A stretch of DNA of 64,000 bases from an uncultured Gammaproteobacteria bacterium (GCA_947258975.1 CAMYKK010000003.1:88503-152502), one strand, 5' to 3'. Positions 5,753-27,972 are shown, counted from the stretch's first letter. Notes: generated by a model not told the origin, from the letters alone. Made by a program: numbers and translations.

Positions 5753-6409
5753 CTATGCGGGTTTGTGCTTGTCTGCCACCCGCGCCGGAGGATTACGATT
5801 CGCTGTGTAAGTTTCGGATGCATCGCGAATGACGTGAGATGCGGTCCGCAGAAACAGGGCGGCGATACCCAGGCCAACCAGTAAGTCCGGCCATTGTGAC
5901 TGGGAGATCCAAACACTGAACGCCGCAATCAGGACCGACACGTTGGCAATGATGTCATTCCGCGAACACAGCCAAACCGACCGCATATTTACGTCTTCCG
6001 TCCGGTGGTGCCAGAGAAGCGCAAGACAAACCGAGTTCCCCAGCAACGCGAGCACACCGATAACACCGATAGTCTCGTAGTGCGGGATTGATGGGTAAAG
6101 AAACTTATAAAACACGTGAATCAAGACAAAACTGCCGAATATCGCCATGATCCCGCCCTTGATATGGGCCGAGATTGCTTTCCAGGTATTATCGCGGGAA
6201 ACCACGTAGAGACTAAAGCCATACGCTAAGGCATCACCCAGCATGTCCAACGAGTCAGCGAGCAGTGCGGTAGATCCGGCAACAACACCCGCTACGATCT
6301 CCACCACGAACATAACAAGATTGATTGCCAACACCGCCTTTAAAGTCGCCCGCTGACGATTGACGAGCTTTTCGATCTCACACCCGGCTTTGGTGCAACA
6401 ATCCGTCAT
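5753..6409 (-). CDS. CDF-type cation transporter lacking a C-terminal domain
   Basis: A 218-residue membrane protein with the six-helix cation diffusion facilitator core and no cytoplasmic metal-sensing domain; the usual CDF length is about 300. Helix 2 carries the metal site 'LLADSLDMLGDALAYG' (D...D) and helix 5 'CSRNDIIANVSVLI' (D...N). The N-terminus is Cys-rich (DCCTKAGC), typical of short Zn/Co/Cd exporters related to CzcD. It is the last gene of the minus-strand arm, 3 bp after the PHA-like gene and after mamK. By position it could be a magnetosome-associated third CDF, as MamV is in some Magnetospirillum, but it is not obviously a MamB/MamM relative. Function as a metal exporter is likely; substrate unknown. 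Confidence 0.8.
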   Translation of the reverse strand: MTDCCTKAGCEIEKLVNRQRATLKAVLAINLVMFVVEIVAGVVAGSTALLADSLDMLGDALAYGFSLYVVSRDNTWKAISAHIKGGIMAIFGSFVLIHVFYKFLYPSIPHYETIGVIGVLALLGNSVCLALLWHHRTEDVNMRSVWLCSRNDIIANVSVLIAAFSVWISQSQWPDLLVGLGIAALFLRTASHVIRDASETYTANRNPPARVADKHKPA

Positions 6410-6412
6410 GCC

Positions 6413-6730
6413 CTACGTTCTTGGCGCCAACGCCTGTTGCAGATAGTCTTCGATATAACCGCTGGTTCGCTTGCGCAGCGGTTGCGCCGCCCACGGAACC
6501 CGGTACCGTACTTTAACCACCGCGGCTTCGATGACTACGTCTCCAGTTACGGAAATCCCTTGCACCTTGCCGACAAAGCGGTAGCCGGTTGTATCGCGCT
6601 CAAACGAGACGGCTTCGAGATAATCCATGGGTTCCGCGCCAGCGATCAGCCCCTCTAATCGCGCGATCGCCTCCTCTTCGGACAGCCCATGGGGTATTAG
6701 AACCGTGTCAGTCGCCAACGATGTCGCCAA
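6413..6730 (-). CDS. Small polyhydroxyalkanoic-acid-system-like protein
   Basis: A 105-residue protein resembling the PHA granule region family (Pfam PHA_gran_rgn): 'IPHGLSEEEAIARLEGLI', an alternating strand region 'YRFVGKVQGISVTGDVVI' and 'VKVRYRVPWAAQPLRKR'. Family members are small proteins of unknown biochemistry often near PHA granule genes. There is no ATG: the start is a TTG at 6730 or 6718, both inside the end of mamK, so translation is probably coupled to MamK. Its position directly behind mamK suggests a magnetosome-linked role, which is inference only. Confidence 0.6.
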   Translation of the reverse strand: MATSLATDTVLIPHGLSEEEAIARLEGLIAGAEPMDYLEAVSFERDTTGYRFVGKVQGISVTGDVVIEAAVVKVRYRVPWAAQPLRKRTSGYIEDYLQQALAPRT

Positions 6731-7886
6731 CCTGCCCCCAGTACTTCGGTGGAAGTTCCGATACCAGATTCAATCCGCCTTGGCATCCGGCGAAATCGGG
6801 ATCATCGACTCGGATGACCTTTACTGTACCGTAGTCCTTCATCCATTCGCTGATCATGGTATCGAGATTCCTGATGCGGGAGCCCCCGCCGGTGAGAACG
6901 ATATTTTGCAGCACGGCCTCCTGTTGGTCCGGTGAGTAGCTTCGCACCAGCACCTCCAGCTGTTGGACAATATCCGGAACGATAGACTCGCATGCTGCGC
7001 GGATATCGTCTGTCACGTCCAACTTTACGGGTTTTCCATCTTCGCGCAGTTCCGCCAGGACCTCCGCGTCGCTATCCATGACAAACGCGTGTTTCTCCTT
7101 AATGTCACAGGCGATGTTGGTGTTGATCTGCACACCGGGCCAGTGTTCCGCGATCTGCGCGGCAATCCGTTGGTCCAGATAATTACCGGCCTTCAAAAGG
7201 GTAGCCTGATCTTCAGCCTCCGGTAACTTGCCGCGGAGGGCGCAGATGTCGGTAGTCCCCGCACCAATGTCTACGACAATGGAATTGAGCAACTTTCCCT
7301 CGGAATATGCGACCATGAACGGCTCGGACAGAACGATCACCACGTCGAGGAGTTCGTGCGCCATGTTCAGCAGCAGCGCCTTGGAGGATGCCGAGGCACG
7401 CGCAGGCACCCCGATCACCCCGCACACCTGATCATCCTCCCCGGGTTCCGCCAATTCAATGACGTGGGCGAGCAGGCGACGAGCCACGTCGAGATCGCGA
7501 TCGGTGAGTTCACGCAACACCCCATCTGTTAGTGGGTACCTCAAATCCAGATAGGCGCGATTGGCGTACGCCTCTTCACCCACTACGAAGGCCGCACCCA
7601 AGAGTTTCACCCCTATGAGGTCCTTGGGATAACCCACCACCGAGCGCAGCCGGTACTTCGTCCCGCGGCTGGTTATCACCGAGGTCCAGGATGTACCGAG
7701 GTCGATACCCAGTATGAAGCGCTTATCGTCTGCAACGGTGTTGGGCACCGGTTCCGTGGGATTTACATCGGGACTGGAAACCGGTTTGAGTTCAGCGGGA
7801 GTCTTCCTGAATTCGACGGCGCCTTCTTCTTTAGTCATGCGCTCCCAAAAGCCCGCTTTATCTTTATCAAGACTGATGAATGACAT
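6708..7886 (-). CDS. mamK: Magnetosome actin-like protein MamK
   Basis: A 392-residue bacterial actin that polymerises into the filaments along which magnetosomes are aligned. Actin nucleotide-pocket motifs are present: phosphate 1 'GIDLGTSWTSV' (about residue 60), phosphate 2 'VVDIGAGTTD', and adenosine motif 'LTGGGSRI'. The segments 'LRSVVGYPKD' and 'YLDLRYPLTDGVLREL' match alphaproteobacterial MamK closely. Unusually, about 50 residues precede the actin fold (Pro/Glu-rich), whereas Magnetospirillum MamK starts about ten residues before it. A GGAGG lies 11 bases upstream of the ATG. It follows the mamJ-like gene by 23 bp and overlaps the next gene. Confidence 0.95.
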   Translation of the reverse strand: MSFISLDKDKAGFWERMTKEEGAVEFRKTPAELKPVSSPDVNPTEPVPNTVADDKRFILGIDLGTSWTSVITSRGTKYRLRSVVGYPKDLIGVKLLGAAFVVGEEAYANRAYLDLRYPLTDGVLRELTDRDLDVARRLLAHVIELAEPGEDDQVCGVIGVPARASASSKALLLNMAHELLDVVIVLSEPFMVAYSEGKLLNSIVVDIGAGTTDICALRGKLPEAEDQATLLKAGNYLDQRIAAQIAEHWPGVQINTNIACDIKEKHAFVMDSDAEVLAELREDGKPVKLDVTDDIRAACESIVPDIVQQLEVLVRSYSPDQQEAVLQNIVLTGGGSRIRNLDTMISEWMKDYGTVKVIRVDDPDFAGCQGGLNLVSELPPKYWGQVGDIVGD

Positions 7887-7909
7887 AATCCAATAGACCT
7901 CCCGCGCCT

Positions 7910-8869
7910 CTACTCAAGATTACCGGATTTTTTCGGCTTGCCGCCCCGGGCACGCCGGTACAGCCCGCCGACCCAGCCGACGCCCGAACTCACTCCGGAT
8001 AAAACACCGCCAAGGGCGCTTTGGCCCTTATTGATGACTCCGCCGATGGCGTTATGTCCCTTGTCAAGGACGAAGCCAAGGCCCCCGCCAAGCGTATTTG
8101 CCAGCCCCTCGAACAGGCCCTCGACGATAATTGTCTGTGTGGGCGCAGACTTGCTTCGTTCGGCGCCGGGTTGTTTCGGGCCGGGGACTCCGCCCATCGC
8201 AACTTGGTCGTGGGACTTACGGTTGATCTTGCGCGCGGTCGTATCCCGCCCATCACCGACGCGCTTTGTTGCTGTTCGTTTGGCACGGGCGCGCGTTTCC
8301 CCCGCGTTTTTGGCCGTCGTGGACGAGGTTTTTCGCTTTGTGCCGCCGTTTTCTTTTTGCGCTGCGGTTTTCTTGCGCGATGGTTTGGCGCCGTCCCCCG
8401 GGGTGGCCGGCTTGGTTTTCTGGTTTTCCGAAACGGTCGTCTTTTTTGCTGACGGTGGCGTCACCGTCTTGCCGGCTGCCGGACCGTTCTCTGTTGCCGG
8501 CGATGACGTGGCGTTGGCATCCTCCTCCTGTGACTTGTCAGCCGCATTTTTTTCTTCCGCTTCGGAAGCAGGGGAGGACTGCCATGGAGCGCCGTCCTCC
8601 CGCGGTTTCATGGGTGCGGGTCCTCCGATGCCTGCCGCCTGCGCGTCTTTTGCGGATTGCCGCGCCGACTGTTCAACGCGTTCGCCGGCCTTCGCTTTTG
8701 TCCGTTCAATCCAAGGCAGCTCCGTTTCGAGTTCGCTGAGCAGGTTGGACATATCACCGTTGGTGGCCGATCTCTTGCCGGCGCTACCGCTTCCTTTTGT
8801 TCGAGCCTTGGCCCGGGTTGCTGCGTTGCCGCTCCCTGGCCGGGTTTTTGCGTTGTCGTCAATCATCAT
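7910..8869 (-). CDS. MamJ-like low-complexity protein between mamE and mamK
   Basis: A 319-residue protein in the exact slot of mamJ, the acidic linker that tethers magnetosomes to MamK filaments. Most of it is low-complexity: Lys/Ala/Thr/Arg-rich (residues about 5-30 and 130-220), with a Glu/Asp/Ser patch near 90-120. The C-terminal 80 residues are Gly-rich and hydrophobic (GLFEGLANTLGGGLGFVL, then repeated GVINKGQSALGGVLSG), recalling the Gly/Val-rich C-terminus of MamJ. A short motif near residue 40, 'LLSELETELPWIERTK', may bind a partner. Unlike MamJ, it is net basic and has no long Glu-Pro repeats. The start at 8869 has GAGG four bases ahead; a second ATG follows at once. Functional equivalence with MamJ is inferred from position and architecture. 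Confidence 0.7.
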   Translation of the reverse strand: MMIDDNAKTRPGSGNAATRAKARTKGSGSAGKRSATNGDMSNLLSELETELPWIERTKAKAGERVEQSARQSAKDAQAAGIGGPAPMKPREDGAPWQSSPASEAEEKNAADKSQEEDANATSSPATENGPAAGKTVTPPSAKKTTVSENQKTKPATPGDGAKPSRKKTAAQKENGGTKRKTSSTTAKNAGETRARAKRTATKRVGDGRDTTARKINRKSHDQVAMGGVPGPKQPGAERSKSAPTQTIIVEGLFEGLANTLGGGLGFVLDKGHNAIGGVINKGQSALGGVLSGVSSGVGWVGGLYRRARGGKPKKSGNLE

Positions 8870-8899
8870 AGGTCCTCATTTTTATCGTTACGATCTCGG

Positions 8900-10924
8900 C
8901 TAGCCGAGCCTCACAAACAGATCGCGTCCGCCCCGCCTGATCTTGAGCCATACCGGCTGGGCCTGACCTGCGGCCAGAACCGCACGGTTTAGGCGTGCGG
9001 CGGTATCGACGGGCGCCATATCAATCATTAGAATCACGTCGTTATTCCGTATTCCTGCCGCGCTTGCCCTCGAGCCTGGCGTGACCTCTTCCACCAGCGC
9101 CCCCGAGGCTCCCGCCGCGTTGGGATTCGCGGGCGCAATCGTCATCATCTCCATTCCGCGCCAGTTCAGCTCTTTTGGCGCGGCTTGTGGCTGCGGCGCG
9201 GCGGTCATCCCGGGCAGGGACATCGCCAACACCTCGACCTTCAGGTTGCGGCGCCGCCCATCGTGAAGGACACCCAAACGCACTTTGTCACCGTTTACAA
9301 ATTCCCCCATACGCCGCACCAGTTGACGCGGGCTGCGCAGCCGCCGCCCCTCCAGTTTCAGCAACACGTCACCGGCGCGGACGCCGGACTCGTCCATGGG
9401 CGAACCCGGCACAACCGCGCTCACGAACACGCCTTTACCAGCCGGCTGCCCCAGGCGCTCGGACAAGAGCTGGTCAATGGGCAACACAGTAGCGCCCAGC
9501 ACGCGGGGGCCGTCGCTCGCAAAGCGTGCGTCCGTGATCGCGACGTTCATACCCAGCCCCGGCGGCGGACCGGCGTACTGGAAAGCCACCGCGGCATTGG
9601 CATTCTGTATCTGATGGCACTGAGCGCACGCCATTGCCTCGCGCCCGTCCCGATGGGGAGGCGGTGCACCGGCGGCAATGGGTGGTCCCGCTTGAGCGGG
9701 CACGGGGGCCGCAGTGCTGCCTTGCCGACCCGTACCGGGGGTCGCAAAAGCCATGCCCGCTACCGGCCTGCCCGCCGCCTGGCGCGTCCCCAAGATCTGA
9801 TGGCAGGCGGCGCAGTCCATCTGCTCCCTTCCATCTGCGTGCGGTGACGCAGCGCCACGCGCGATGAGCGGCGCCGCCGGCGCTGCCGCGATGCGCCGAT
9901 TTGCCGGTCGTGTTGCCCGCCGCGGACCCGGGGCTCCAGTCGCCGCCCTGAGGTCTATTTCATCGCGCAGGAACTGTATCGCGTCATTGGCGGGAATCGC
10001 AAAACCGATACCGGCAAAGGCGCCCGTTGGGCTGTAGATCGCCGTATTGATGCCGATGACGTAACCGTTGCGGTCTACCAGCGGGCCGCCGGAATTGCCC
10101 TGATTGATCGCCGCATCGGTCTGCAGCAAATTGTTATGCGCCACGCCGTCGATGATCAGCGATTTGCGCGTCCCTGAGATCACCCCCTGACTCACCGTTT
10201 GATCCAGTCCGAAGGGGCTGCCGATCGTCAGTACCGGATCCGCCGCCTGTGCCCGGTTGCTGTCGCCCAGGCGCGCGGAGGTAAGCCGTGATTGCGGATT
10301 GATCTTCAGCAACGCAAGGTCGAGAACCTCATCGAGTTTCACCACTTCGGCCGTGTAGCGCTGTGTGCCGAGGTCGTCGAAGACCGTCACGTAGACTGCG
10401 GCGCCACTTTGCACCACGTGAAAATTGGTGAGGATATAGCCGTCGTCGCGCACCACCACCCCGGACCCGATGCTCTCCACGGTGCGGCCGGTAGAGGGAT
10501 CTGCGAAGCGGACCCCGCCGGGCGGTTTCGGTGGCGCGTTCTGCGCGGTCGCAGGCGCCTGCTTCTCAAGCGTGCCGGCACGGGCTACGTTTACGTTGAC
10601 CACGCTTTTTTTGAGCTGGGCCGCCACGCTCGAGAAGCCGCGCGCGACCGGTAGCGCCGCGGCAACGGGCCGGTTCGTGGCCGGCGCCAGCGAGCTGGAC
10701 CGGTTGGCCGTGACCGGGTTTACCACGGCGCCCGGTGCGGTGCCGCGCCCGCCGGGATAATCGATATGGGCGTTCTTCAGGTCTACGTCGACCCCCAGGG
10801 TGTAGTAATTTATGTACCAGTAGGTGCCGATTAGGACCAGCACTGCTACCGCCGCGACCAGCAGGAAATACTTCTGCAGGTCTTTGCCGCAGAAATCTTC
10901 AGCGTCTGATTCAAGAAAACTCAT
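8900..10924 (-). CDS. mamE: Magnetosome serine protease MamE (HtrA-like, two magnetochromes, two PDZ)
   Basis: A 674-residue protein that in magnetotactic bacteria sorts proteins to the magnetosome and proteolytically switches crystal growth. Order: one TM helix (about 18-42); trypsin-like domain with intact triad H169 (LTNFHVV), D202 (VLDLALLKI) and S278 (GNSGGPL); two CxxCH magnetochrome motifs at 371-375 and 433-437, each preceded by the 'PHADGRE' or 'PHRDGRE' signature; two PDZ domains (about 480-570 and 590-670). Stop is followed closely by the mamJ-like gene (30 bp), and mamI lies 6 bp upstream, so it is cotranscribed. Domain order is identical to alphaproteobacterial MamE. Confidence 0.97.
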   Translation of the reverse strand: MSFLESDAEDFCGKDLQKYFLLVAAVAVLVLIGTYWYINYYTLGVDVDLKNAHIDYPGGRGTAPGAVVNPVTANRSSSLAPATNRPVAAALPVARGFSSVAAQLKKSVVNVNVARAGTLEKQAPATAQNAPPKPPGGVRFADPSTGRTVESIGSGVVVRDDGYILTNFHVVQSGAAVYVTVFDDLGTQRYTAEVVKLDEVLDLALLKINPQSRLTSARLGDSNRAQAADPVLTIGSPFGLDQTVSQGVISGTRKSLIIDGVAHNNLLQTDAAINQGNSGGPLVDRNGYVIGINTAIYSPTGAFAGIGFAIPANDAIQFLRDEIDLRAATGAPGPRRATRPANRRIAAAPAAPLIARGAASPHADGREQMDCAACHQILGTRQAAGRPVAGMAFATPGTGRQGSTAAPVPAQAGPPIAAGAPPPHRDGREAMACAQCHQIQNANAAVAFQYAGPPPGLGMNVAITDARFASDGPRVLGATVLPIDQLLSERLGQPAGKGVFVSAVVPGSPMDESGVRAGDVLLKLEGRRLRSPRQLVRRMGEFVNGDKVRLGVLHDGRRRNLKVEVLAMSLPGMTAAPQPQAAPKELNWRGMEMMTIAPANPNAAGASGALVEEVTPGSRASAAGIRNNDVILMIDMAPVDTAARLNRAVLAAGQAQPVWLKIRRGGRDLFVRLG

Positions 10925-10930: not shown

Positions 10931-11155
10931 CTACTCGGTCTCGTCGATGGGTTCCTCGTCGTCGATCAGATCCTCATCTTTCACCTCTTGCTCCGTGCGC
11001 ACTTTGGATACGCCTGTGGCGAGAGCGAGCATACCGACCAGCAACAGGACGATCGGAACCAGTCCACGAAGCAGTTCGGCGACTGACCACCACCAGACCG
11101 TCAAAGCCCACAATCCGCAGGCAAGCGCCAATAGGCCAATGATGATATTAGGCAT
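10931..11155 (-). CDS. mamI: Magnetosome membrane protein MamI
   Basis: A 74-residue protein with two TM helices and an acidic cytoplasmic tail. MamI is one of the few proteins needed to invaginate the inner membrane into a magnetosome. The start MPNIIIGLLALACGLWALT and 'VWWWSVAELLRG' followed by a second helix ending 'ALATGVSKVR' match MamI of Magnetospirillum. The tail here is longer and strongly acidic (EVKDEDLIDDEEPIDETE). The ATG at 11155 is preceded by GGAG seven bases upstream; the longer open frame to 11257 runs into mamH and is rejected. It lies 43 bp after mamH and 6 bp before mamE. Confidence 0.92.
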   Translation of the reverse strand: MPNIIIGLLALACGLWALTVWWWSVAELLRGLVPIVLLLVGMLALATGVSKVRTEQEVKDEDLIDDEEPIDETE

Positions 11156-11198
11156 ACAGTTACTCCAGGTCACAAAGCAAGAATGGTTGGGCAATGGC

Positions 11199-12485
11199 TC
11201 ACAACAGCGACTCCGCCTCGGCATGCAACGGATGCGTATCCCCGCGACCCGTCCCAATTCGTTGATCTGCCCGCATTACCCATAAGGAATAGCTCAGAAT
11301 CAACAGATTCCCCACCCCGGTGAACACAAACGGGGCGTGCGGACCAACCGCGTCAAACAGAAAACCGCCGATCTGAACGAACAAAACGATACCGATGCTG
11401 CCCACCACGAAGAACATGCCGAGTACGGCGCCGCGCATTTCCGGTGGTGCCAGATCCACCGCCAAAACCTGCGGTGCGACCAGACAACCCGCCTGTCCGG
11501 CTGCCAGCAGGGCTGCGGGAATCAGCACCATCCAGCCGAATGGATTGACGATAAACCCAAACCACACGAGACCGATGCCGGACAGGGCCATACCGGCTGC
11601 AATCGCCGCCACACGGCCGTACCGGTCGATGAATATCCCCCACAAGGGTATCGACACCAGCACGGTAAACCCGATCAGTCCCACCACCATCCCGGCGTGA
11701 CCTGCGGCCTCCCCCTGACCCATACCGACCACATCGGCGAAATACACAAACCAGAGCATGAGGAACAGGCCGATGAACACCATGTCGTTGCGCGCGAAAA
11801 AGGCCGAGGCGAAGGACAATCTCAGGCGCGGCTCGGCGCGCAGCAGCCTCCAGACCTGCTTGAGCGACGCCTTGCCGTTCGTTACTCGGGGGGCCACATC
11901 GATCAAACAACGCCGGCTCAACCACGCGCCCACGAGCGCTACCGCAGCGGTCAGCAGCATGACCGCACCGAGCCCGGCGTGCTGGGGAATCTGCATCAGC
12001 ACCGCGTAGACGATGGTGGCCCCAAACGCCATCATAAATGCCGTTTTCGTCATCAGTTCCGCACGGTTCCGGTAGCTAGTGAAATCCCCCGCCAGGGTGG
12101 AGAGTTGCGGCCAGACCGCGCCGGTACCCAACGACATCACGATGCGCATGGTGAAGTAGAAGAACAACCCACCGATCCCGAACAGCGCTCCCAGCTCCAG
12201 GCTGAAGGTCGCGAGAAACGCCCCCAACGCCGCAACCAGGAAACCGCCCACCACAATCGGCACGCGGCCGTACCGATCAGACAGAAATCCCAGATACCCG
12301 ATCAGCACCAGGTCCAGGATTTCCGTCACCGCTTGGATGCTGGCGTTGATTGCGCCCGCGTTCTCCAGTCCGACGCCGAGGACATTGCGTAGATAAAGAG
12401 GCTGCACGGCGATGGCCAGTGTCATGAAAATCATGCTCAAGGCCGCCAGCAGGTACAGCGAGTTCCAGTGATGGCTCTTGACCAT
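11199..12485 (-). CDS. mamH: Magnetosome MFS transporter MamH
   Basis: A 428-residue major facilitator protein with about 12 TM helices, the same length as Magnetospirillum MamH. MamH contributes to iron supply for magnetite. Recognisable blocks are 'LIGYLGFLSDRYGRVPIVVG' (the MFS loop 2-3 motif) and 'MSLGTGAVWPQLSTLAGDF', and it heads the canonical mamHIEJK order. It starts at an ATG (12485), with a 252-bp gap upstream to mamF in which no gene is seen and a promoter could lie. Identity is supported strongly by position plus family; general MFS similarity alone would be weaker. Confidence 0.92.
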   Translation of the reverse strand: MVKSHHWNSLYLLAALSMIFMTLAIAVQPLYLRNVLGVGLENAGAINASIQAVTEILDLVLIGYLGFLSDRYGRVPIVVGGFLVAALGAFLATFSLELGALFGIGGLFFYFTMRIVMSLGTGAVWPQLSTLAGDFTSYRNRAELMTKTAFMMAFGATIVYAVLMQIPQHAGLGAVMLLTAAVALVGAWLSRRCLIDVAPRVTNGKASLKQVWRLLRAEPRLRLSFASAFFARNDMVFIGLFLMLWFVYFADVVGMGQGEAAGHAGMVVGLIGFTVLVSIPLWGIFIDRYGRVAAIAAGMALSGIGLVWFGFIVNPFGWMVLIPAALLAAGQAGCLVAPQVLAVDLAPPEMRGAVLGMFFVVGSIGIVLFVQIGGFLFDAVGPHAPFVFTGVGNLLILSYSLWVMRADQRIGTGRGDTHPLHAEAESLL

Positions 12486-13061: not shown

Positions 13062-13153
13062 CACGTCATACTCCTAAAACCTTTTGTTTTTACCGCCTGT
13101 CGTTGTTCCAAATATGCGTGCGACCGCACCATCAAGACGCACATTGGCATCGG

Positions 13154-19197: not shown

Positions 19198-21108
19198 ATG
19201 AGCGAAGTGCAACACAAGTGCGCGCAGAAGTCCCTGCAGAACAAGATCTTGTTCTGCGAAAAGCCGTGGCAGATCCCCGCGGTGGCGCTCACTGCGCTGG
19301 TGGTATTCACCTTCCTGTGGGCGTTCTATCTGCTGGATGAAACCATGGAGCATGAATTCGACGAATTCTCCGTCAGCGATTTCTTCCATCCGACCGCCGG
19401 CAGCGCCACGCTGCAGGATATCATGAACACCGTCCCGCCAGCGGTGACCGGGATCAGCGGCGGCAACGTCAATTCTCCGGCACTGGGGTCCGGCGTCATC
19501 GTCAGCAGCAGCGGCTACGTTATTACCGCGCTCCACCTGATTGACAATCTCGACACGATTCTCGCCTACGTGGACACACCGTCCGGCCATCGAGCCATAG
19601 AGGCACAGGTCGTGAAGTCGGTCCCCGAGCACGATCTGGTAATGCTGAAGTTGGTAACCACCGATCACTTCATGTATCTCCGTCTCGCGGATACCAACGG
19701 CCTGCAGCCCGGGGAGCCGGTGTACGCCATCGGACAAGGTATCGGTAGCGGGCCGATCGTCAAGGCCGGCGCCGTGCTCGAGACCAACCTGTCTTTGGCG
19801 GTCGGCGTGCAGAACCTGAGCCACGTGATCAGGACCGACGCCGTTTATAACTGGGCGCAAACGGGCGGCGCGCTGGTGAATGCAAACGGGGAGTTGGCGG
19901 GCGTCAATATGGCGATAGTCGGCGTGTCCGGCCTCCTGGAAGGCTACGCGCTGCCCGCCGACGTACTGGCGGCGCATTTTGCGGATGTCATCAATTTCAA
20001 GCCGGCACCCGGGGCGTCACCGAATCCCCGGGGAACACGCAGTCCGGGAACACAGGGCGATCCGCCGCTGCGTGGATCAGCGGCGTGGTGGAACAACGCC
20101 CGCAACCAACTCGCCCCCGCTCCGGCGGTCCCGCCCATGGGGCTCAACACGGTGATGAACAATCCGGGCCCGGCCGGCATCCCGGACACCGGCGCGCGCA
20201 CGGGCGCGGCGCACCCGCTGGGAACGCGCATCGGCGGCTATCGCATCGAAGACATTATTGGCCTGGCGCTGCTCGCGCTAACGGCGGGTGTCGTCGGCGG
20301 CATGATGACCATGGGCGGCGGGGTGCTCCAGGTGGTGGGCATGATGGTCTTGTTTGGATACGGCATGTATTTGATTCGCCCCGTCGCCTACCTCACCAAC
20401 ATAGTCGTCTACGGCGCAGCCGCGCTGCGCAACAAAGAGAGCGGGCTGCTCCATTGGCCGGGTATTCGCGGTGCCTTGCCCTGGGCGGTGGTGGGCGTGG
20501 TGGCTGGGTATTTTCTCGGTAATATGCTCGAAGATCGCAGCATCGGCTATATCCTGGGCGTGTTTGCCCTGGCCATGGGCTTGAAGGTCGGCTACGAGAT
20601 GATGGCGGAAGCCGGCCTTGGGGTGGCGGCTGTGGCCCACGGTGCGACAACGGCCGGCGTAAAACGGGACGAACTCGATGAGTTGCTCGATCCCGAGGAG
20701 AGACCACCTGCGCACTTGATTGCCAGTGATCTAGTGAAACACAGCGCGCTTGGGGTTCCCGTGGGCCTGATCAGCGGGATGCTTGGCATCAGTGGCGGCG
20801 TTGCGGGGGTTCCGATTCAACATTATGTCAACGGTGTCGCGTTGCGCAACGCCATTGCCAATGCCTCGGTGCTGGTCTTCTGTGCCTCCCTGAGCGGCGC
20901 CGTGATCGCATTCTCCCACGGCGTCAGCGCCGGCATTATCGACTGGCAGGCGCCGGTTACCCTGGCCATCGTCATGGCCCCCGGTGCCTATGTCGGCGGT
21001 CTGGCGGGGGCCAAGCTCACCGCCGTGTTGGACCAGCGGGTGCTGCGGATCTTTTATGTCTTGATCATGCTGGGCGTTGCCGGAAGGATGCTGTTGGGGG
21101 CGCCATGA
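19198..21108 (+). CDS. mamO: Magnetosome protein MamO: degenerate trypsin domain fused to TauE/SafE permease
   Basis: A 636-residue protein. Order: TM helix (about 27-46), trypsin-like domain (about 70-265), a proline-rich linker, then a TauE/SafE-type permease with about eight helices (350-636). The protease site is degenerate: H113 (TALHLI) and D146 (EHDLVML) are kept, but the serine is threonine T222 (QTGGAL). This H-D-T arrangement is known in MamO, which lacks protease activity and binds metal through neighbouring histidines (H145 here lies in the equivalent place). MamO is needed to start magnetite crystals and to activate MamE. ATGA overlap with mamP. Confidence 0.96.
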   Translation: MSEVQHKCAQKSLQNKILFCEKPWQIPAVALTALVVFTFLWAFYLLDETMEHEFDEFSVSDFFHPTAGSATLQDIMNTVPPAVTGISGGNVNSPALGSGVIVSSSGYVITALHLIDNLDTILAYVDTPSGHRAIEAQVVKSVPEHDLVMLKLVTTDHFMYLRLADTNGLQPGEPVYAIGQGIGSGPIVKAGAVLETNLSLAVGVQNLSHVIRTDAVYNWAQTGGALVNANGELAGVNMAIVGVSGLLEGYALPADVLAAHFADVINFKPAPGASPNPRGTRSPGTQGDPPLRGSAAWWNNARNQLAPAPAVPPMGLNTVMNNPGPAGIPDTGARTGAAHPLGTRIGGYRIEDIIGLALLALTAGVVGGMMTMGGGVLQVVGMMVLFGYGMYLIRPVAYLTNIVVYGAAALRNKESGLLHWPGIRGALPWAVVGVVAGYFLGNMLEDRSIGYILGVFALAMGLKVGYEMMAEAGLGVAAVAHGATTAGVKRDELDELLDPEERPPAHLIASDLVKHSALGVPVGLISGMLGISGGVAGVPIQHYVNGVALRNAIANASVLVFCASLSGAVIAFSHGVSAGIIDWQAPVTLAIVMAPGAYVGGLAGAKLTAVLDQRVLRIFYVLIMLGVAGRMLLGAP

Positions 21109-21941
21109 GCGGGGGACCACAAAATATTGTCGGCATCGTGGTGCTGGCGGGGGCCGCGCTGGCGGTGCTCTATGGTTTGTACATCCGCACCCCCAATCCA
21201 GCGAACGCCGTTGCCGGCGTCACACCGACAGCGGGCGGCGGTGTACCGTGGAGTCCATCCGGATTGCCGCCTGGTGCAGGCAACACACAGAACGAATTCG
21301 CTCCCGCCGTTCTGCTGCCGGTAGCGGCAAACGCGGGTGTGGCAGATGTGGCGCCGAACTACGTCGGACCCGGGATTCAGATTTACGAAGCCCATTGGCA
21401 GGGCATGGATACCAAGCAGTTCAACGAGGAGATCCGCAGAAAATTGAAGTATCCGCGCGGGTTCAACGGAGTGTTGATCGGCGAGGTCACCATGGCCGCG
21501 GCGGATTCAGGCCTGCGCGCCGGCGACGTGATTGTCTTGCTGGAAGGGGTACCGGTAACAACGCTGGAGGACTTTCAGCGCCAGACGAAGACATTGCGGG
21601 CCCGCCGTCAGGCGGCGGTTTCGGTCATGCGCAAGGGCAAACAAACACAGGATGGACGTTTCATCATGAGCCGCCGCACCTTTGTATTGCGAGCGAACGA
21701 CCAGCTGGGATTTGCGCAGGTGGAGACCGCGCCGATGATTGTTGCGGGTGATCCGCCGCCGCATCCGTACCGCGGGCCCTGCACCCGCTGTCATGCCATT
21801 GGCGAGGGGTTTGAACTGGTGCCGGATCCAGATTTGATCAACCTGCCGCCGCCCACGATCGCGGCGGCGGTCGCGGCACAAGGACAGCCTCCGCATCGCG
21901 ATTTCGGTCCCTGTGAAGCGTGTCATGTGATCGTGCAATAA
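21105..21941 (+). CDS. mamP: Magnetosome PDZ-magnetochrome protein MamP
   Basis: A 278-residue protein with an N-terminal membrane anchor (about 7-27), one PDZ domain (about 90-185) and two magnetochrome motifs, CTRCH (226-230) and CEACH (270-274), each preceded by the 'PPHPYRGP' or 'PPHRDFGP' signature. Known MamP is an iron oxidase that makes the Fe(II)/Fe(III) mix needed for magnetite, using c-type haems. The layout is identical. Overlaps mamO by ATGA; 68 bp to mamA. Confidence 0.96.
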   Translation: MSGGPQNIVGIVVLAGAALAVLYGLYIRTPNPANAVAGVTPTAGGGVPWSPSGLPPGAGNTQNEFAPAVLLPVAANAGVADVAPNYVGPGIQIYEAHWQGMDTKQFNEEIRRKLKYPRGFNGVLIGEVTMAAADSGLRAGDVIVLLEGVPVTTLEDFQRQTKTLRARRQAAVSVMRKGKQTQDGRFIMSRRTFVLRANDQLGFAQVETAPMIVAGDPPPHPYRGPCTRCHAIGEGFELVPDPDLINLPPPTIAAAVAAQGQPPHRDFGPCEACHVIVQ

Positions 21942-22009: not shown

Positions 22010-22660
22010 ATGAGTGACAAACTGGCTTTTGAAGATGCCCTGGGGCTATACGCCCGGCATGGCCTTAATCTGATTAAACGGGCGTCAGAAACCATGATCA
22101 ACGGCTTTAACGCATTGACGACGATCGATGTGAATGCGCAAAAATCCTTTTACCGTGACAAAGGCATACGTCATGCGAAACGCGGCCATTACAAGAAGGC
22201 AGCGGCGTTGCTCGCCCCCTTGTACGAGCGAGAGCCGGAAGACAAGGAAGTCATTCTTTACCTCGGGTTGTCATGGCTCAAAAACGGCCATCGCGATGAG
22301 GGCCTGAAGTTGTTGGAGGAGGCGCATGCCGCCAAGCCGGATAATCTCAGGGTTTCTTCGGTCTTGTCCATTGCCTACATGCAGGCGGAGAGATACAAAG
22401 AAGCGATTCCGCATCTCGAAAAAGTGCTGCAGGCCGATGCCGACAATTATCGTGCGAAATACCGCTTGGGCGTGGCTCAGGACAATTTGGGAAAGCACAA
22501 GCTTGCGATCAAGCATTTTCTCGAAGCCCTGGAGCTGAAACCGGACGATGCCAAGATTCATCGCTCGATCGGTTACACGTATGAGCAGTTGGATGATAGA
22601 GAGAACGCCCTGAGCCATTTGAAGCGCGCCAACGAATTGGATGAGATGCAGGGGAAGTAG
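22010..22660 (+). CDS. mamA: Magnetosome TPR scaffold protein MamA
   Basis: A 216-residue soluble protein of about five TPR units (residues 45-210; for example 'HAKRGHYKKAAALLAPLYER' and 'YRAKYRLGVAQDNLGKHKLA'). MamA self-assembles on the cytoplasmic face of the magnetosome and recruits proteins. The N-terminus 'ALGLYARHGLNLIKR' resembles the MamA start. A good GAGGGAGA ribosome site lies upstream. It sits in the canonical P-A-Q order. Confidence 0.93.
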   Translation: MSDKLAFEDALGLYARHGLNLIKRASETMINGFNALTTIDVNAQKSFYRDKGIRHAKRGHYKKAAALLAPLYEREPEDKEVILYLGLSWLKNGHRDEGLKLLEEAHAAKPDNLRVSSVLSIAYMQAERYKEAIPHLEKVLQADADNYRAKYRLGVAQDNLGKHKLAIKHFLEALELKPDDAKIHRSIGYTYEQLDDRENALSHLKRANELDEMQGK

Positions 22661-22696: not shown

Positions 22697-23584
22697 ATGG
22701 TATTTCGAAGAACCGAAAATTCAGAGACCGCCGGGTATTCGGACACGCGCAGCACTCCCCGTGCGCAGCGATCGGAAGCCTTGTTGCGTGAGCTGTATCA
22801 CGAGGAGGTTAACCCGCGTTTCCGCGCGCCGCGCATGCGCGGTATAAAGCTGCTGTTTATTGCATCCATTCTGTCAATTTCCGTGTTTGCCGGAACCTCC
22901 CTGTTCAAGTACAACAATTTTATCGCCTTGCGAGAGGCTGTCTACGCCTCCAAGGGTAATCTCCAGGGGGCGATACAAAGGCGCACAAACCTGTTCTCCA
23001 ACATGGTGAAGCTGACACTGAGCCACGCGCAGTTGGAGCACGCGGTGTACTCCTACGCCGCGCGCATGCGCACGCAGATGTCGAACGGCCAGGTACAGGG
23101 TGGCGGGGGCAAGGGCAAAGACGCTGACGCGCTGTTGGCTGCAGGCACGGCGGCCGCGATTTTAAATGAAAAGGGATTGCCGCTAACGGCCGAGCAGCTT
23201 TCCACGGATGCGTCGCAGGGCGGTGCGCTCGCGGCGCTCGCGGGCGCGGCCACTACCGAGTCGTCGTTGAGCCGGTTGATGGCGGTGGCGGAACGCTACC
23301 CGGAGATCCGCTCATCCGAGACTTATCATAAGATGATGGATTCCCTCATGAACATGGAGGATCTGATTGCGAACCGGCGCATGGAGTGGCACCACAATAC
23401 GCGTGACTACAACAGCGCCATTACGGGTTGGCCGTGGACGGTCCTGGCGCGGGTTACCGGCTTTGACCGCATGGATTACTTTGAAACCTTGGACGGGTAC
23501 GAGGTCGCCCCGGTGTTTACCTCAGAGATCTACGGTGACCTCATGCCGGTCGCGAAAGTATCAGAGAAGCGGGGCGAGCCATGA
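22697..23584 (+). CDS. mamQ: Magnetosome LemA-like protein MamQ
   Basis: A 295-residue membrane protein with one TM helix (about 51-70) and a LemA-type helical domain ('FKYNNFIALREAVYASKGN', 'AIQRRTNLFSNMVKLTLSHA', and C-terminal 'MNMEDLIANRRMEWHHNTRDYNSAI'). MamQ is essential for magnetosome membrane formation. An Ala/Gly-rich insert (about 130-190) interrupts the domain. ATGA overlap with mamR. Confidence 0.95.
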   Translation: MVFRRTENSETAGYSDTRSTPRAQRSEALLRELYHEEVNPRFRAPRMRGIKLLFIASILSISVFAGTSLFKYNNFIALREAVYASKGNLQGAIQRRTNLFSNMVKLTLSHAQLEHAVYSYAARMRTQMSNGQVQGGGGKGKDADALLAAGTAAAILNEKGLPLTAEQLSTDASQGGALAALAGAATTESSLSRLMAVAERYPEIRSSETYHKMMDSLMNMEDLIANRRMEWHHNTRDYNSAITGWPWTVLARVTGFDRMDYFETLDGYEVAPVFTSEIYGDLMPVAKVSEKRGEP

Positions 23585-23838
23585 TCTGGACCGCACTCAC
23601 GCGGGTAGGCGCGCTGCTCTCTGTGGTCCTTCTCTTCAAGGATCTTCACGATCTCGCCACGCGGGACATCAAGCCAAACCGAATCTATACAACGAGCGAG
23701 GCGGCGCGCTACTTGGGCATTGAACGCGTTGAGGTGATTGCGCTGTTACGCACCAATTCACTGCATGGAAAGATGGTAGACGGCAACTATCGAATCCCGG
23801 GGCAGAGCATTCTGAGTTATTTAGACAATGAAGTATGA
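23581..23838 (+). CDS. mamR: Magnetosome protein MamR
   Basis: An 85-residue protein: a short hydrophobic N-terminus (MIWTALTRVGALLSVVLLF) followed by an excisionase/MerR-like helix-turn-helix (IYTTSEAARYLGIERVEVIA, then NYRIPGQSILSYL). It matches MamR along its length. MamR affects crystal size and number; despite the HTH fold, no DNA target is known. It overlaps mamQ by 4 bp and mamB by 11 bp. Confidence 0.93.
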   Translation: MIWTALTRVGALLSVVLLFKDLHDLATRDIKPNRIYTTSEAARYLGIERVEVIALLRTNSLHGKMVDGNYRIPGQSILSYLDNEV

Positions 23839-24760
23839 GCATTGCAGGGCGTGTCGTAATGTCGTGATCGTATGGGCGTTCTGGGTCAATGTCGCCCAGA
23901 CGATGTTCAAGGGATCACTGGGAGTCATGAGCGGCAGTGCCGCGTTGGTTGCGGATGCCATCCATTCCGGGGCAGACGTGATCGCAAGTTCCGTTACCAT
24001 GGCGAGCGTGAAATTGTCGTCGCGGCGGGCCGATAAAAACTATCCCTATGGCTACGGCAACATCCAGTACATCTCGTCCTCGATCGTGGGCATGATTCTG
24101 ATTTTCGGCGCCCTCTATCTCATGTATGAATCGACTGCGAAGATCGTGGCGGGCGAATATAGCGCGCCGAGCATGCTTGCCCTATTCGGTGCACTGGTTT
24201 CTATCTCTACCAATGAATTGATGTATCGCTATCAAAGCTGTGTAGGTAGAGAGAATAACAGCCCGGCGATCCTGGCGAATGCCTGGGATAATCGATCAGA
24301 CGCTATTTCTTCTATTGGGGTGCTGATAGGCATTGGCTTCGCGGTGGCCGGATTTCCCATAGCGGACCGGTTGGCGGCAATTGGCGTCGGCATATTAGTG
24401 GCGCGCATAGGCATAGAATTGAATATCGATGCCATTCAGGGGTTAATGGATTCTTCCGTCGATGTGGACAACGTACTCAAGCCCGTCTATGAGATCACCA
24501 AGTCGACGCCCGCAGTGGTAGGTGTGCGTTACCTGCGTGGGCGCGAGGTCGGTGAAGAGATACATCTCGAAATCGGCGTCTATGTGGACGGCGGTCTTAC
24601 CGTGCGTGAGGGCGACGACATCGCCAGCGCGGTGCGGAATCGCATATTCGACAAGATTGACCACGTCAAGCATATTGCCGTGTCGGTCGTGCCGGTGAAG
24701 ATGAAAAAGCGCCACGTTTGGAGTGGCAAAAAGAACGTTATCGTCGCGCTCCCTGACTGA
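23828..24760 (+). CDS. mamB: Magnetosome CDF iron transporter MamB
   Basis: A 310-residue CDF protein, partner of MamM, required both for vesicle formation and iron import. It has the MamB signature: N-terminal 'MKYEHCRACRN', 'SGSAALVADAIHSGADVIAS', 'YPYGYGNIQYISSSIVG', 'NELMYRYQSCVGRENNSPAI' and 'NAWDNRSDAISS'. The C-terminal domain begins near 215. The last 20 residues are basic. The start is fixed by the tight overlap with mamR. Confidence 0.97.
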   Translation: MKYEHCRACRNVVIVWAFWVNVAQTMFKGSLGVMSGSAALVADAIHSGADVIASSVTMASVKLSSRRADKNYPYGYGNIQYISSSIVGMILIFGALYLMYESTAKIVAGEYSAPSMLALFGALVSISTNELMYRYQSCVGRENNSPAILANAWDNRSDAISSIGVLIGIGFAVAGFPIADRLAAIGVGILVARIGIELNIDAIQGLMDSSVDVDNVLKPVYEITKSTPAVVGVRYLRGREVGEEIHLEIGVYVDGGLTVREGDDIASAVRNRIFDKIDHVKHIAVSVVPVKMKKRHVWSGKKNVIVALPD

Positions 24761-24782
24761 GGCCCCCGGGCCGGATGAAGGC

Positions 24783-25385
24783 ATGAAAACAGAAAACTGG
24801 ATTGTCGCTTTTGGCGCGGGCATTCTTTTTGCGGTGCTCTTGGTGGCCCTGTTGCCGGATGATCTCTGGGACGACGAGGCGCACCACGCTGCACAGGCAG
24901 TCGGCAACGCGGTAGGCGTAATGCCCGGCGATGCGCGCGGCGGGCGGCGCATCACAGAACTGCCGGCAGCGGCACCTGGTTTTTCCCGCCAGCCCAACTA
25001 CCCCCCGCAGCTTCGCGGTCGAGCGGTGGCGATGCCCGCCGGCCGGGGTCTGGTGCCGTTTTCGGCTGCACGGACCGAGGCGTTCAACGGTACGGTGGCG
25101 CAGGTTCAAGGCAGCGGAGTCGATCAGGGATGGGGACAGATCCATGTCTGGATTGCGGACCGCAACGGCGACGCAATGGAACTCTCCATGGCGCCCGATT
25201 GGTATCTTGAATATATGGGTTGCGGTGTGACGCGAAACATGTACGTAAAGGGCACGGGTTTCATTTTCGACACAGACGGAATGGCACAACCGTTGCTGTA
25301 TGCCAAGGACGTGACCGTCAACGGCGTTAAATGCAAGTTGCGAAACGACGAAGGATTTGCGCTTTGGTCAAATCGGCTGCGTTGA
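24783..25385 (+). CDS. mamS: Magnetosome protein MamS
   Basis: A 200-residue protein with an N-terminal TM anchor (NWIVAFGAGILFAVLLVALL) and a periplasmic/lumenal C-terminal domain of mostly beta character (about 105-200: 'FNGTVAQVQGSGVDQGWGQI'). In the canonical order it lies between mamB and mamT and affects crystal size; biochemical function unknown. The ATG at 24783 (MKTENWIV) is preferred over an upstream frame that overlaps mamB. Confidence 0.88.
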   Translation: MKTENWIVAFGAGILFAVLLVALLPDDLWDDEAHHAAQAVGNAVGVMPGDARGGRRITELPAAAPGFSRQPNYPPQLRGRAVAMPAGRGLVPFSAARTEAFNGTVAQVQGSGVDQGWGQIHVWIADRNGDAMELSMAPDWYLEYMGCGVTRNMYVKGTGFIFDTDGMAQPLLYAKDVTVNGVKCKLRNDEGFALWSNRLR

Positions 25386-25395
25386 CGGCTGCGCC

Positions 25396-25932
25396 ATGCA
25401 ACTCCCGGACAGGCTCAAGCGGGCATTTGCCAAGTTTCCGGCCGCTTCGGTACTGCTTGTGGTGCTGGTCGCTGGCCTGGCTTGGGAAATGCTGGGGGGG
25501 CAGGAAACCAAAGCCATGCGCGCCATATCCGGCCGCGACGCCGCAGGCGTCTATCTCGGCAGATTGCCGGCACCGGTAGAGCCGTCTCTGATCGATCCTA
25601 TCGTAGACATCCTCAATCCGAGGCCTCGCTACCGACTCATGACCATTCGCCATATCGCGCCGATCAAGCGTGACGGCCCCATGCCGCATGCGTACGTCGG
25701 AGAGTGCAAGCAATGTCACCTCATCATCGGCGGGCCACCTGCGGGCAGCCAGCCCAAGACACCTATGGGCGCCATGCTCGAGAATATCTCCATCAGTTAC
25801 GGGAAGGTGGGTCCGCCACTGCTGCCGACGTCCAATCGCGCGCATCCGGCTGCGGGCCGCTGCATCAAGTGCCACGATATCGTGGTCAAGGTACCGGTAA
25901 AAAAGAAACGTGGATTGAGCTGGTTGAATTAG
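25396..25932 (+). CDS. mamT: Magnetosome magnetochrome protein MamT
   Basis: A 178-residue protein with an N-terminal TM helix (about 16-33) and two magnetochrome CxxCH motifs, CKQCH (104-108) and CIKCH (156-160), preceded by 'PMPHAYVGE' and 'AHPAAGR'. MamT is thought to relay electrons with MamE, MamP and MamX during magnetite formation. The start at 25396 lies 11 bp after mamS. It is the last gene of the plus-strand arm; repeat copy B begins right after. Confidence 0.94.
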   Translation: MQLPDRLKRAFAKFPAASVLLVVLVAGLAWEMLGGQETKAMRAISGRDAAGVYLGRLPAPVEPSLIDPIVDILNPRPRYRLMTIRHIAPIKRDGPMPHAYVGECKQCHLIIGGPPAGSQPKTPMGAMLENISISYGKVGPPLLPTSNRAHPAAGRCIKCHDIVVKVPVKKKRGLSWLN

Positions 25933-25944
25933 TGTAGATCTTTT

Positions 25945-26158
25945 CATCGCTCCAGGCGTGGCGCGCAGCTGCACGAGCCCGTCGCCAGCATCCGGGATGC
26001 TGGTGAGCAATGCGGGCGGCTAGACTTGCGCTCCAAACAACCCACAGCCAGCTATGGGTTTCGTTCCAGCGCGGCGTTCTTACCAATCGACACTGAGACT
26101 ACGCGCAGCACAAGCGTCTTCGCCAGGCCCCGGATTCTTGGTGCAATTTCCGGGCTAG
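25945..26158 (+). repeat. MITE-like dispersed repeat, copy B
   Basis: This fills the gap between the convergent mamT and mamN. It shares 'acagccagctatgggtttcg', 'gcggcgttcttaccaa', 'gactacgcgcagcacaag' and the terminal block 'ccggattcttggtgcaat' with copies D and E. Its left part (ctgcacgagcccgtcgccag) matches copy C. Its right end abuts the mamN stop codon. Confidence 0.8.
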
Positions 26159-26159
26159 G

Positions 26160-27479
26160 TTAGCGTGCGATCAAGAGGATATAGACGGTTGAGAGGCCGA
26201 GAAAGATGCCCATGATCGGCACACCCCAGGAGAGGTACCCGCGAAAGTCGAGTCCGCGGCCAGGCGGTATTAACGTCCGCATGTCGCGATGCTGTTGCAG
26301 GAAGTTTTCCAGCTGGGTGGCGGCCACGGTGCCGGCGGTGGCCCCCGTCAATGCGGCGGATGAACCGGCCAATACCCCGAGGGATAGCGCCCACCACACG
26401 GCGGGATCTTGCGAACCACCATATAACGTCACAGCGACGGGCATGAAGAACGCGGTCGCGGCGCCGGCATTGAGGAAGATCGTGGCGGCGCCCGCCAGCC
26501 ACATGAGGGCCACCAGCTCTGCAGTCGCGTTCCCCCCGCTGATGGCGCCGATCAGCCACGTCACCCCGTCGAGCGCATCGGCGTTGACCAGAGCGCCGAC
26601 CATGACGAAAAGCGCGCCAAAGAATACGATGTCGTTACCTCCGCAGGATCGGAATAGTTGTTCGGAGTCAAAGCGGCCCAATAGCAGTCCCACCGCGCCC
26701 GCGCCCAGGGCGATCCACCCGGGACGTACATCGAGGGCGTCGACGAGCAGAAATCCGAGCAGTGTTATCAATAGAAGGCTTATTCCCAACCGTTGCAGGT
26801 GTGTCTGCAGCGGCAGCGCCACATCGGCCAGTTGCCCGAGTTCAACCGTAGTTGTCGGAGCTTGGGAGGCGCGGTCCCGAGGAATTGACTGACGCGCCTG
26901 AAAGTAGAGGAACATGACTGCCAGCAGGATCAGGCACGGGACCATCATGCCGCCGATGAAGTCGAGGAATTGGAGGTCGCCGGCGGACGAGATGATCATG
27001 TTGGGGAAGTCGCCCACCATTGTCGAGGCCCCGCCAAGATTGGAGGCGATGATCTCCGCGACCAGGATCGGGACCGGGTTGATGCGAATTAGGCGGCAGA
27101 TCGTTAACGTGATCGGTAACACCACGATCATCGTAGACAGGTTGTTGATCAACAGTGAGAGTCCGTAGGTCACCAGGGATAGCAACACCAGGATCCACCA
27201 CCCGTTGCCGAGGGAGTTGACGGCGACGTGGGTGGCAATGCGCGCGAACACCCCGGACCTCGCGAGGATTGCAGATATGACGGACATCCCGAAGATCAAC
27301 GCCAGGGTCTCAAAGTAGATCGCCTCGAGCGCCATACGCGGTGAGTAAAAGCCGGTGACGATGCCGAATAGAAGCAGGCACCCAGCCCCCGTCAAAACGG
27401 CCAGTCGACGCTCGATGAGATCGAAAAAGATGGCGCCAAAAACCGCAACGAACAAACAGATGGTTATCGCCGTAACCAT
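26160..27479 (-). CDS. mamN: Magnetosome Na+/H+-antiporter-like protein MamN
   Basis: A 439-residue membrane protein with about 12 helices of the ArsB/NhaD/CitT ion-transporter superfamily. It is thought to export protons released by magnetite precipitation. Matches to MamN are extensive: 'YFETLALIFGMSVISAILAR', 'VAEIIASNLGGASTMVGDFP', 'FIGGMMVPCLILLAVMFLYF' and 'WGVPIMGIFLGLSTVYI'. The ATG at 27479 (MVTAITICLF) aligns with the MamN start; a GTG at 27491 is the alternative. In the canonical order mamN lies between mamM and mamO; here it is after mamT on the other strand. Confidence 0.94.
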   Translation of the reverse strand: MVTAITICLFVAVFGAIFFDLIERRLAVLTGAGCLLLFGIVTGFYSPRMALEAIYFETLALIFGMSVISAILARSGVFARIATHVAVNSLGNGWWILVLLSLVTYGLSLLINNLSTMIVVLPITLTICRLIRINPVPILVAEIIASNLGGASTMVGDFPNMIISSAGDLQFLDFIGGMMVPCLILLAVMFLYFQARQSIPRDRASQAPTTTVELGQLADVALPLQTHLQRLGISLLLITLLGFLLVDALDVRPGWIALGAGAVGLLLGRFDSEQLFRSCGGNDIVFFGALFVMVGALVNADALDGVTWLIGAISGGNATAELVALMWLAGAATIFLNAGAATAFFMPVAVTLYGGSQDPAVWWALSLGVLAGSSAALTGATAGTVAATQLENFLQQHRDMRTLIPPGRGLDFRGYLSWGVPIMGIFLGLSTVYILLIAR

Positions 27480-27510
27480 TACTATCGTCACGCAGGGGAA
27501 TCAGGCCGCT

Positions 27511-27972
27511 TCACTCGTTGGCCATAATCCACAGTTGACACCCAGAACGGCTGGTGACCGCCCAATGTGGCATCGTCTTACCCTTGGTTTCGGCCAGGTC
27601 CTGCGCGTAGCGCAACATCACGTCCGGGGGTGCCCGCTCATCCTTGCTGAGACGGCTCAAGGCCGAACGAATGGTATCGTGCATCTCGTCGGGCGGGGTT
27701 TCACAGTGCAGGTAAAGCGTGTAGAGGGACCACAGCACGGCTGGAAACCAGCCGATCAAGCTCCCCTGCAAGATCATGCACACGACTCCCGAAACCGGTC
27801 TCCCGAGGGTGAAAAACTGCAGCCAGGGTACCAAAACCGCGAGCAGTACGCGTCCATACAGGGGCATGTCGACATAGCCCTTTGACGCTACGATCTGATT
27901 GATATCGAGGTTCCGGAGCCAGCTTTGGAAGGTGTGTGACAGGGCGCGCATCGGTGCAATCGACAATGGCAT
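27511..27972 (-). CDS. Pmp3/YqaE-like membrane protein
   Basis: A 153-residue protein whose middle (residues about 38-85, 'GRVLLAVLVPWLQFFTLGRP' and 'LIGWFPAVLWSLYTLYLH') resembles the two-helix proteolipid YqaE/Pmp3 (UPF0057) family, members of which modulate membrane potential. The C-terminal 65 residues are soluble (DEMHDTIRSALSRLSKDE). It is 31 bp upstream of mamN on the same strand, so cotranscribed. Link to magnetosomes is inferred from this operon. Start uncertain: ATG at 27972 or 27951, neither with a strong ribosome site. Confidence 0.65.
   Translation of the reverse strand: MPLSIAPMRALSHTFQSWLRNLDINQIVASKGYVDMPLYGRVLLAVLVPWLQFFTLGRPVSGVVCMILQGSLIGWFPAVLWSLYTLYLHCETPPDEMHDTIRSALSRLSKDERAPPDVMLRYAQDLAETKGKTMPHWAVTSRSGCQLWIMANE

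Follow-up and report, generated by a model that had tools for sequence, protein, structure and literature searches.

The locus studied here raises the question of how a gammaproteobacterium came to carry a set of magnetosome genes in two divergent arms, with feoAB at their junction and mamN set apart, when the mamAB operon of Magnetospirillum reads H-I-E-J-K-L-M-N-O-P-A-Q-R-B-S-T, an order that we also read directly in Telmatospirillum (L020). The window (the whole stretch of 64,000 nucleotides that was analyzed) lies inside a contig of 318,632 bases (C3) from a draft genome of 5.49 Mb in 214 contigs. On the strength of the sequence comparisons presented below, we consider it probable that the window holds a complete, apparently intact magnetite-type cluster that was gained horizontally as part of an insertion between thiC and kef, and whose order was rearranged from that of a collinear ancestor.

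ORF calling and profile searches confirm the genes, order and strands proposed for both arms in an earlier note on this DNA, namely a minus arm mms6-mamF-mamH-mamI-mamE-(mamJ-like)-mamK and a plus arm mamL-M-O-P-A-Q-R-B-S-T, as well as the position of feoAB at the junction (291 bp from the feoA start to mamL) and of mamN beyond mamT on the minus strand. In full, the minus arm runs leftward from 17.65 kb as feoA-feoB-orf180-mms6-mamF-H-I-E-(mamJ-like)-K-orf105-CDF, while the plus-arm genes run rightward from 17.94 kb and mostly overlap or abut, with mamN and orf153 next after them on the minus strand. The features are as follows:

about 5453-36202, entire insertion separating thiC from kef, 30.7 kb; the two genes are neighbors in congeners
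5753-6409, minus strand, short CDF cation transporter of 218 aa that closes the minus arm, 3 bp after orf105 (TIGR01297, 87.5 bits against a cut-off of 82.35; PF01545)
6413-6730, minus strand, orf105, PHA_gran_rgn (PF09650; 30% identity, E = 7e-11, to the mamK-mamL ORF of L018)
6708-7886, minus strand, mamK, actin-like filament (NF040964, 487.7 bits)
7910-8869, minus strand, mamJ-like ORF between E and K, with a low-complexity body and a conserved C-terminal motif
8900-10924, minus strand, mamE, HtrA-type protease with two CXXCH motifs (NF040960, 590 bits)
10931-11257, minus strand, mamI, likely start near 11155 (NF040963, 90.5 bits, residues 35-100)
11199-12485, minus strand, mamH, MFS transporter (NF040986, 650 bits)
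12738-13064, minus strand, mamF/mmsF-like gene
13154-13735, minus strand, mms6-like gene (NF040917, 48 bits, under cut-off)
13930-14472, minus strand, orf180, membrane protein without assigned family
15099-17234, minus strand, feoB, ferrous iron transporter (TIGR00437, 635 bits)
17395-17652, minus strand, feoA (profile under cut-off; 42% identical to the feoB-adjacent feoA of L103)
17653-17943, between the arms, divergent intergenic region of 291 bp, presumed site of both promoters
17944-18219, plus strand, mamL (NF040988, 20 bits; 46% identity to the MamL of G022)
18216-19145, plus strand, mamM (NF033615, 441.5 bits)
19198-21108, plus strand, mamO (NF040961, 714.6 bits)
21105-21941, plus strand, mamP, two CXXCH motifs (NF040965, 301 bits)
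22010-22660, plus strand, mamA (NF040959, 210 bits)
22697-23584, plus strand, mamQ (NF040966, 232 bits)
23581-23838, plus strand, mamR (NF040990, 73 bits)
23828-24760, plus strand, mamB (NF033616, 443 bits)
24723-25385, plus strand, mamS (NF040991, 183 bits)
25357-25932, plus strand, mamT, two CXXCH motifs (NF040992, 192 bits)
25983-26160, host-genus repeat copy filling most of the mamT/mamN gap
26160-27491, minus strand, mamN, displaced and inverted (NF040989, 587.5 bits)
27511-27972, minus strand, orf153, weakly matching Pmp3 and sharing an operon with mamN
28107-29291, plus strand, GET3/ArsA-type ATPase (TIGR00345, 241 bits; 36% identity to an ATPase encoded right behind mamB in L023)
29402-31051, plus strand, GTPase (34% identity over 536 aa to the chromosomal paralogue at 59686-61242)
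31409-35802, accessory genes for an AAA protein, PAP2, an OprB porin and a CDF transporter, missing between thiC and kef in congeners
36005-36175, host repeat copy on the right border of the insertion, with 20-bp terminal inverted repeats
36203-38002, kef gene, right flank of the insertion

At the scores listed, MamH, MamK, MamI, MamM, MamB, MamP, MamA, MamN and FeoB exceed their NCBIfam cut-offs, and MamE and MamO (each against 800 bits), MamQ, MamR, MamS, MamT, Mms6 (against 200) and MamL (against 100) have the expected family as their best match while falling under the curated cut-off. For MamL, Mms6, MamF and the mamJ-like ORF, where profiles are weak or absent, the assignment follows position and identity to the genes in the same place elsewhere. 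MamF had no NCBIfam match and is 41-63% identical to MamF-like proteins from 14 other magnetosome clusters. The mamJ-like ORF, which matched no NCBIfam or Pfam family, owes its label to its position between E and K, and shares its C-terminal motif with the E-K ORFs of G022/G170, G369 and L018 and with contig C77, which bears a second, small mamK/mms6/mamJ-like patch. Paired CXXCH heme motifs are found in MamE (CAACH/CAQCH), MamP (CTRCH/CEACH) and MamT (CKQCH/CIKCH), and the mms6-like gene holds five 42-bp (14-residue) repeats. The listed mamI ORF (11257-10931) overlaps mamH, with its conserved part starting near 11155. We note that two genes lying within the earlier note's coordinates had been left unnamed there, orf105 and the 218-aa CDF transporter; these overlap or adjoin mamK, with which they appear to be co-transcribed.

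No mam gene in the island is broken, and mamI, E, L, M, O, Q and B, the genes held essential in a list quoted in PMC9938234, are all present and intact, the weak profile match of MamL notwithstanding. Based on the roles established for the Magnetospirillum homologues, FeoAB would import ferrous iron, MamI/L/Q/B/Y-type proteins would shape the vesicle, and MamB and MamM, with FeoAB and MamH also in the set, would load it with iron. MamE/O/P/T/S and Mms6/MamF, with MamN counted in the redox and nucleation set, would control redox state and crystal growth, and MamK and the MamJ-like linker would align the chain.

Both arms would be read outward from the 291-bp feoA/mamL region, which must presumably carry the promoters of both unless internal promoters serve, and in which we found one sigma-70-like match. 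A candidate Fur box in the same region was discarded, as its best match (11 of 19 positions) was equaled by 257 of 500 shuffles. These observations bear on whether the cluster is used, and it is possible, although on the doubtful side, that it was gained but is silent, as an intact unexpressed cluster like that of Rhodovastum atsumiense G2-11. This is the nearest published parallel, a compact and intact cluster that stands isolated in a family without magnetotaxis and turned out to be silent (PMC9938234), and the single promoter-like site and lack of a recognizable iron box at the junction point in the same direction. On the other hand, no mam gene has decayed and feoAB is tied into the unit, and silence would in any case be compatible with the reading that we prefer rather than opposed to it.

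Turning to the origin of the cluster, the host genome has ZipA and lacks GcrA, matching named gammaproteobacterial controls, and the host is thus a gammaproteobacterium. Among 109 genomes of its order (31 genera), only the host (G000) has a MamM match at E<=1e-80, and likewise only the host has a MamK match at E<=1e-60. Moreover, thiC is followed directly by kef in three congeners (G400, G402 and G399) and in a member of another genus (G403), with outer flanks that match on both sides and gaps of about 200, 155, 580 and <100 bp, respectively, compared to 30.7 kb in the host; the contigs of two further congeners stop at thiC. The GC content of the cluster is 0.596, as against 0.558 (sd 0.009) in 8-kb host chunks, and its tetranucleotide composition is marginally unlike that of the host in a leave-one-out comparison. 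A strongly foreign tetranucleotide signature was rejected, since the first controls sat inside their own reference and the effect became marginal once they were left out.

An occupied versus an empty site and a patchy distribution, as in horizontal islands, are thus both seen here. Against this reading, the island edges showed no integrase, no tRNA site and no direct repeats, nor was any target duplication longer than 9 bp found at its ends, and the tetranucleotide difference is only marginal. An Rfam search of 5.0-36.5 kb gave no matches, and no MamO was found on plasmids. The insertion is wider than the 5753-27972 segment considered in the earlier note, which overlooked that all of this DNA was inserted in a lineage otherwise devoid of magnetosome genes. 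Vertical inheritance, with a cluster in the ancestor of the order that was lost from all sampled relatives, would accord with the view that magnetosome clusters are very old and were lost many times (PMC7602337), and with the MamM homologues present in other orders of the class. We nevertheless consider it unlikely, as about 108 of the sampled genomes, including five congeners, would have had to lose the cluster, with clean removal at the same thiC/kef point in at least four, and as the GC of the cluster departs from that of the host. Horizontal gain is the best reading because loss elsewhere would need identical clean excision many times, and the island was thus very probably gained in this way by the host lineage. 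No donor nearer than about 60-66% protein identity is present among the matches listed, which may reflect an old transfer or a donor that has yet to be sampled; nearer relatives may exist beyond those matches.

The layout of the island departs from the canonical mamAB arrangement, in which H to T share one strand, K and L are adjacent and N lies between M and O. Nearly all comparison islands keep K-L, directly or with mamF or orf105 between them, including those of G022, G170, G330 and G116 and islands from Zetaproteobacteria, Rhodospirillales, Nitrospinota, Nitrospirae and Magnetococcales. Ten keep M-N-O, and mamF precedes mamH in eight. The tree relatives of the window and the outgroups preserve F-H-I-E-(J)-K-L and M-N-O, and the nearest islands (those of G022/G170, the Zetaproteobacteria and the Rhodospirillales) have K beside L and N flanked by M and O, so that the order of the window is derived. 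The comparison therefore agrees with the proposal that a canonical ancestral operon was broken at K|L and that mamN is out of place. Neither a K|L break nor a displaced N is unique to the window, given that G369 shows the former and that M and O stand without an intervening N in several other clusters.

We built one concatenated tree per arm, from F, H, I, E and K for the minus arm (1592 columns) and from M, O, P, A, Q, B and T for the plus arm (2146 columns). In both, the window belongs to a set of six rows, together with G022/G170, the Zetaproteobacterium PCbin4 and Rhodospirillales (support 100/99 in each). The nearest rows in both trees are G022/G170, from another gammaproteobacterial order (54% and 50% concatenate identity), and among the matches listed these two genomes are the only ones from that order, with no nearer relative within it. 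A grouping of the window with Saanich-type gammaproteobacteria (G369, G480 and nTSbin2) was rejected for both arms (AU p = 0.00015 for the plus arm and 0.00034 for the minus arm). The description of the island as gammaproteobacterial in type is right as to the class of the host but is not supported for the island, which does not group with the Saanich-type islands. The positions of the two arms are compatible, which argues that the island is not two fused islands of very different donors, and rearrangement fits better than fusion. That the arms were gained separately from different donors and joined at feoAB is accordingly very unlikely, even though the divergent layout has an extra feoAB and orf180 module between its halves and the arm trees differ slightly in the nearness of G022/G170, because this difference amounts to one weakly supported branch, while both trees recover the same six-row set and reject the Saanich type.

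Returning to rearrangement of a single island, an ancestor with the usual collinear order could have given the present one most simply if the block feoA-feoB-orf180-mms6-F-H-I-E-J-K-orf105-CDF, lying immediately upstream of mamL, inverted without changing its position. Such an inversion would produce two divergent arms in exactly the layout of the window, with feoA facing mamL and feoAB at the junction. An orf105 homologue follows mamK in the Zetaproteobacterial island, and so the break would lie between orf105/CDF and mamL. The path to this order need not be unique, as G369 parts K and L differently, and since the trees separate the window from the Saanich lineage, two or more breaks at K|L, of different kinds, are probable.

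In a second event, mamN together with orf153 would have been relocated beyond mamT. MamN is full-length and groups weakly (81/83, not starred, in the MamN tree) with that of G480, in which mamN likewise lies outside the main operon. M-O without N is also found in G369, G480, nTSbin2, one Nitrospirae cluster and two Magnetococcales, and has been described for Magnetofaba and Magnetococcus (PMC3934378). The repeat family that occupies the mamT/mamN gap recurs in the host flanks (window 1426-1539, L014 and L016), in the congener G402 and in G403, but is absent from the other magnetosome loci compared; four host repeat copies lie in 25.98-36.18 kb and none in 5.45-25.95 kb. Two routes would account for this: insertion of the repeats once the island had arrived, to which their presence points, or, more tentatively, recombination between copies that remodeled the right third along with the mamN joint. 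A host-genus repeat at this joint suggests, without proving, that mamN moved in the present host. A tentative extension, to which we give limited credence, is that the cluster was caught after its transfer to a lineage that never had it, with feoAB and almost all the organelle genes forming a bidirectional unit that starts at the 291-bp region, host repeats driving the remodeling (the move of mamN and the right edge), and the C77 patch as a second piece. An assembly artifact, be it a foreign magnetosome contig joined in or two misjoined arms, has the draft state of the genome (214 contigs) in its favor but is highly improbable, given host-type gene order on both outer sides of the island within its 318-kb contig, the adjacency of the flanking thiC and kef in congeners, the host-genus repeat copies inside the right third of the insertion, and the fact that no long repeat able to cause a false join was found at feoA/mamL.

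Compared to the Magnetospirillum mamAB operon, the rearranged island has the same core set and keeps the internal order of each half except for N, but it is split divergently at K|L, with N moved and inverted, and joins feoAB and mms6/mamF to the H-K half, with orf105, CDF and orf153 as extra genes. The G022/G170 islands share all core genes with the window, but in these I-E-J-K-L-M-N-O-P-A-Q-R-B-S-T stand on a single strand, followed by a mamB-like gene and mms6-F-H-I, and there is no feoAB in the stretch read. The Saanich Inlet gammaproteobacterium MAG_00172_gam_018 (L017/G369) resembles the window in having the blocks mms6-F-H-I-E-J-K and L-M-O-A-Q-R-B-S-T, with K not adjoining L and no N between M and O, but its blocks lie in tandem on one strand with the L block first (L-M-O-A-Q-R-B-S-T-mms6-F-H-I-E-J-K), without feoAB at the joint, and on a separate tree branch.

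The R. atsumiense G2-11 cluster was likewise gained horizontally, and shares with the window the order mms6-mmsF-mamH-I-E-K, a feoAmBm within a broken mamAB and the lack of N after M (PMC9938234). In contrast to the window, its host is an alphaproteobacterium, feoAmBm precedes mamP and does not separate K from L, and its arms are not described as divergent in the sections of PMC9938234 drawn on here. Host class, divergent layout, the place of feoAB and the documented empty site set the window apart from that cluster. More broadly, variation among Pseudomonadota clusters is documented, in that modules such as feoABm and mms6 may interrupt mamAB or lie dispersed about it (PMC9840458), and gene order is less conserved in this group than in Nitrospirae (PMC5955933). 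Complete clusters have been published for the gammaproteobacterial SS-5, BW-2, SHHR-1, CCP3 and CCP4 (PMC11773610, PMC9840458); our island comparison covered draft genomes from the collections scanned, in which sequences of SS-5, BW-2 and the other cultured or sorted gammaproteobacterial magnetotactic strains were not found.

It is still disputed whether magnetotaxis has spread chiefly through horizontal transfer or through vertical descent accompanied by many losses. When a cluster occurs in a single species and four relatives have the site empty and undisturbed, sequence data can hardly make a more direct case for transfer, and this one lies outside the Alphaproteobacteria. The divergent layout indicates that the H-K and L-T halves can be separated and turned without loss of core genes, such that co-transcription of the whole of mamAB would be dispensable as a rule. 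The island thus offers a defined candidate for asking whether a newly gained cluster is expressed.

The gene next after mamK in the window (orf105, 6413-6730) belongs to the PHA_gran_rgn family, as does the gene next after mamK in the Zetaproteobacterial magnetosome island L018 (9423-9731), and it is possible that this gene is a magnetosome gene that has so far gone unrecognised. The mms6-like gene of the window contains five 42-bp repeats (13285-13559), each translating into a 14-residue alanine/glycine-rich unit, N-terminal to the Gly-Leu segment.

In the Saanich-type locus of nTSbin2 (L103, 5397-19724), which is a duplicated and rearranged gammaproteobacterial cluster, mamL-mamM-mamO occurs twice in tandem, with mamT-feoA-feoB separating the copies, and mamP-mamO lies on the opposite strand.

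We also observed a second patch of magnetosome genes in the same draft genome, on contig C77 (locus L121, 3068-6471):

Within 3068-6471, divergent mamK, 39% identical to the window mamK
Within 3068-6471, 150-aa ORF
Within 3068-6471, mms6-like gene with an apparent frameshift
Within 3068-6471, mamJ-like gene, C-terminus 63% identical to that of the window mamJ-like gene
11378-11764, outside the patch, fragment resembling a phage integrase

A dispersed repeat of the host genus (~170 bp, ends TTGGTGCAA) resembles a MITE, and one of its copies is bounded by terminal inverted repeats of 20 bp. It is clustered in the island's right third and recurs at loci L014 and L016 (host flank), L109 and L113. 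Its copies in the window are:

1426-1539
25983-26160
31298-31416
34640-34805
36005-36175

The island GTPase (29402-31051) has a 34% identical chromosomal paralogue at 59686-61242, with another large GTPase at 61239-62948. The island further encodes a GET3/ArsA-type ATPase (28107-29291), and a 36% identical ATPase stands immediately 3' of mamB in the Nitrospirae magnetosome cluster L023 (10269-11555). If the ATPase serves as a targeting factor for tail-anchored proteins, its link with magnetosome clusters would be new.
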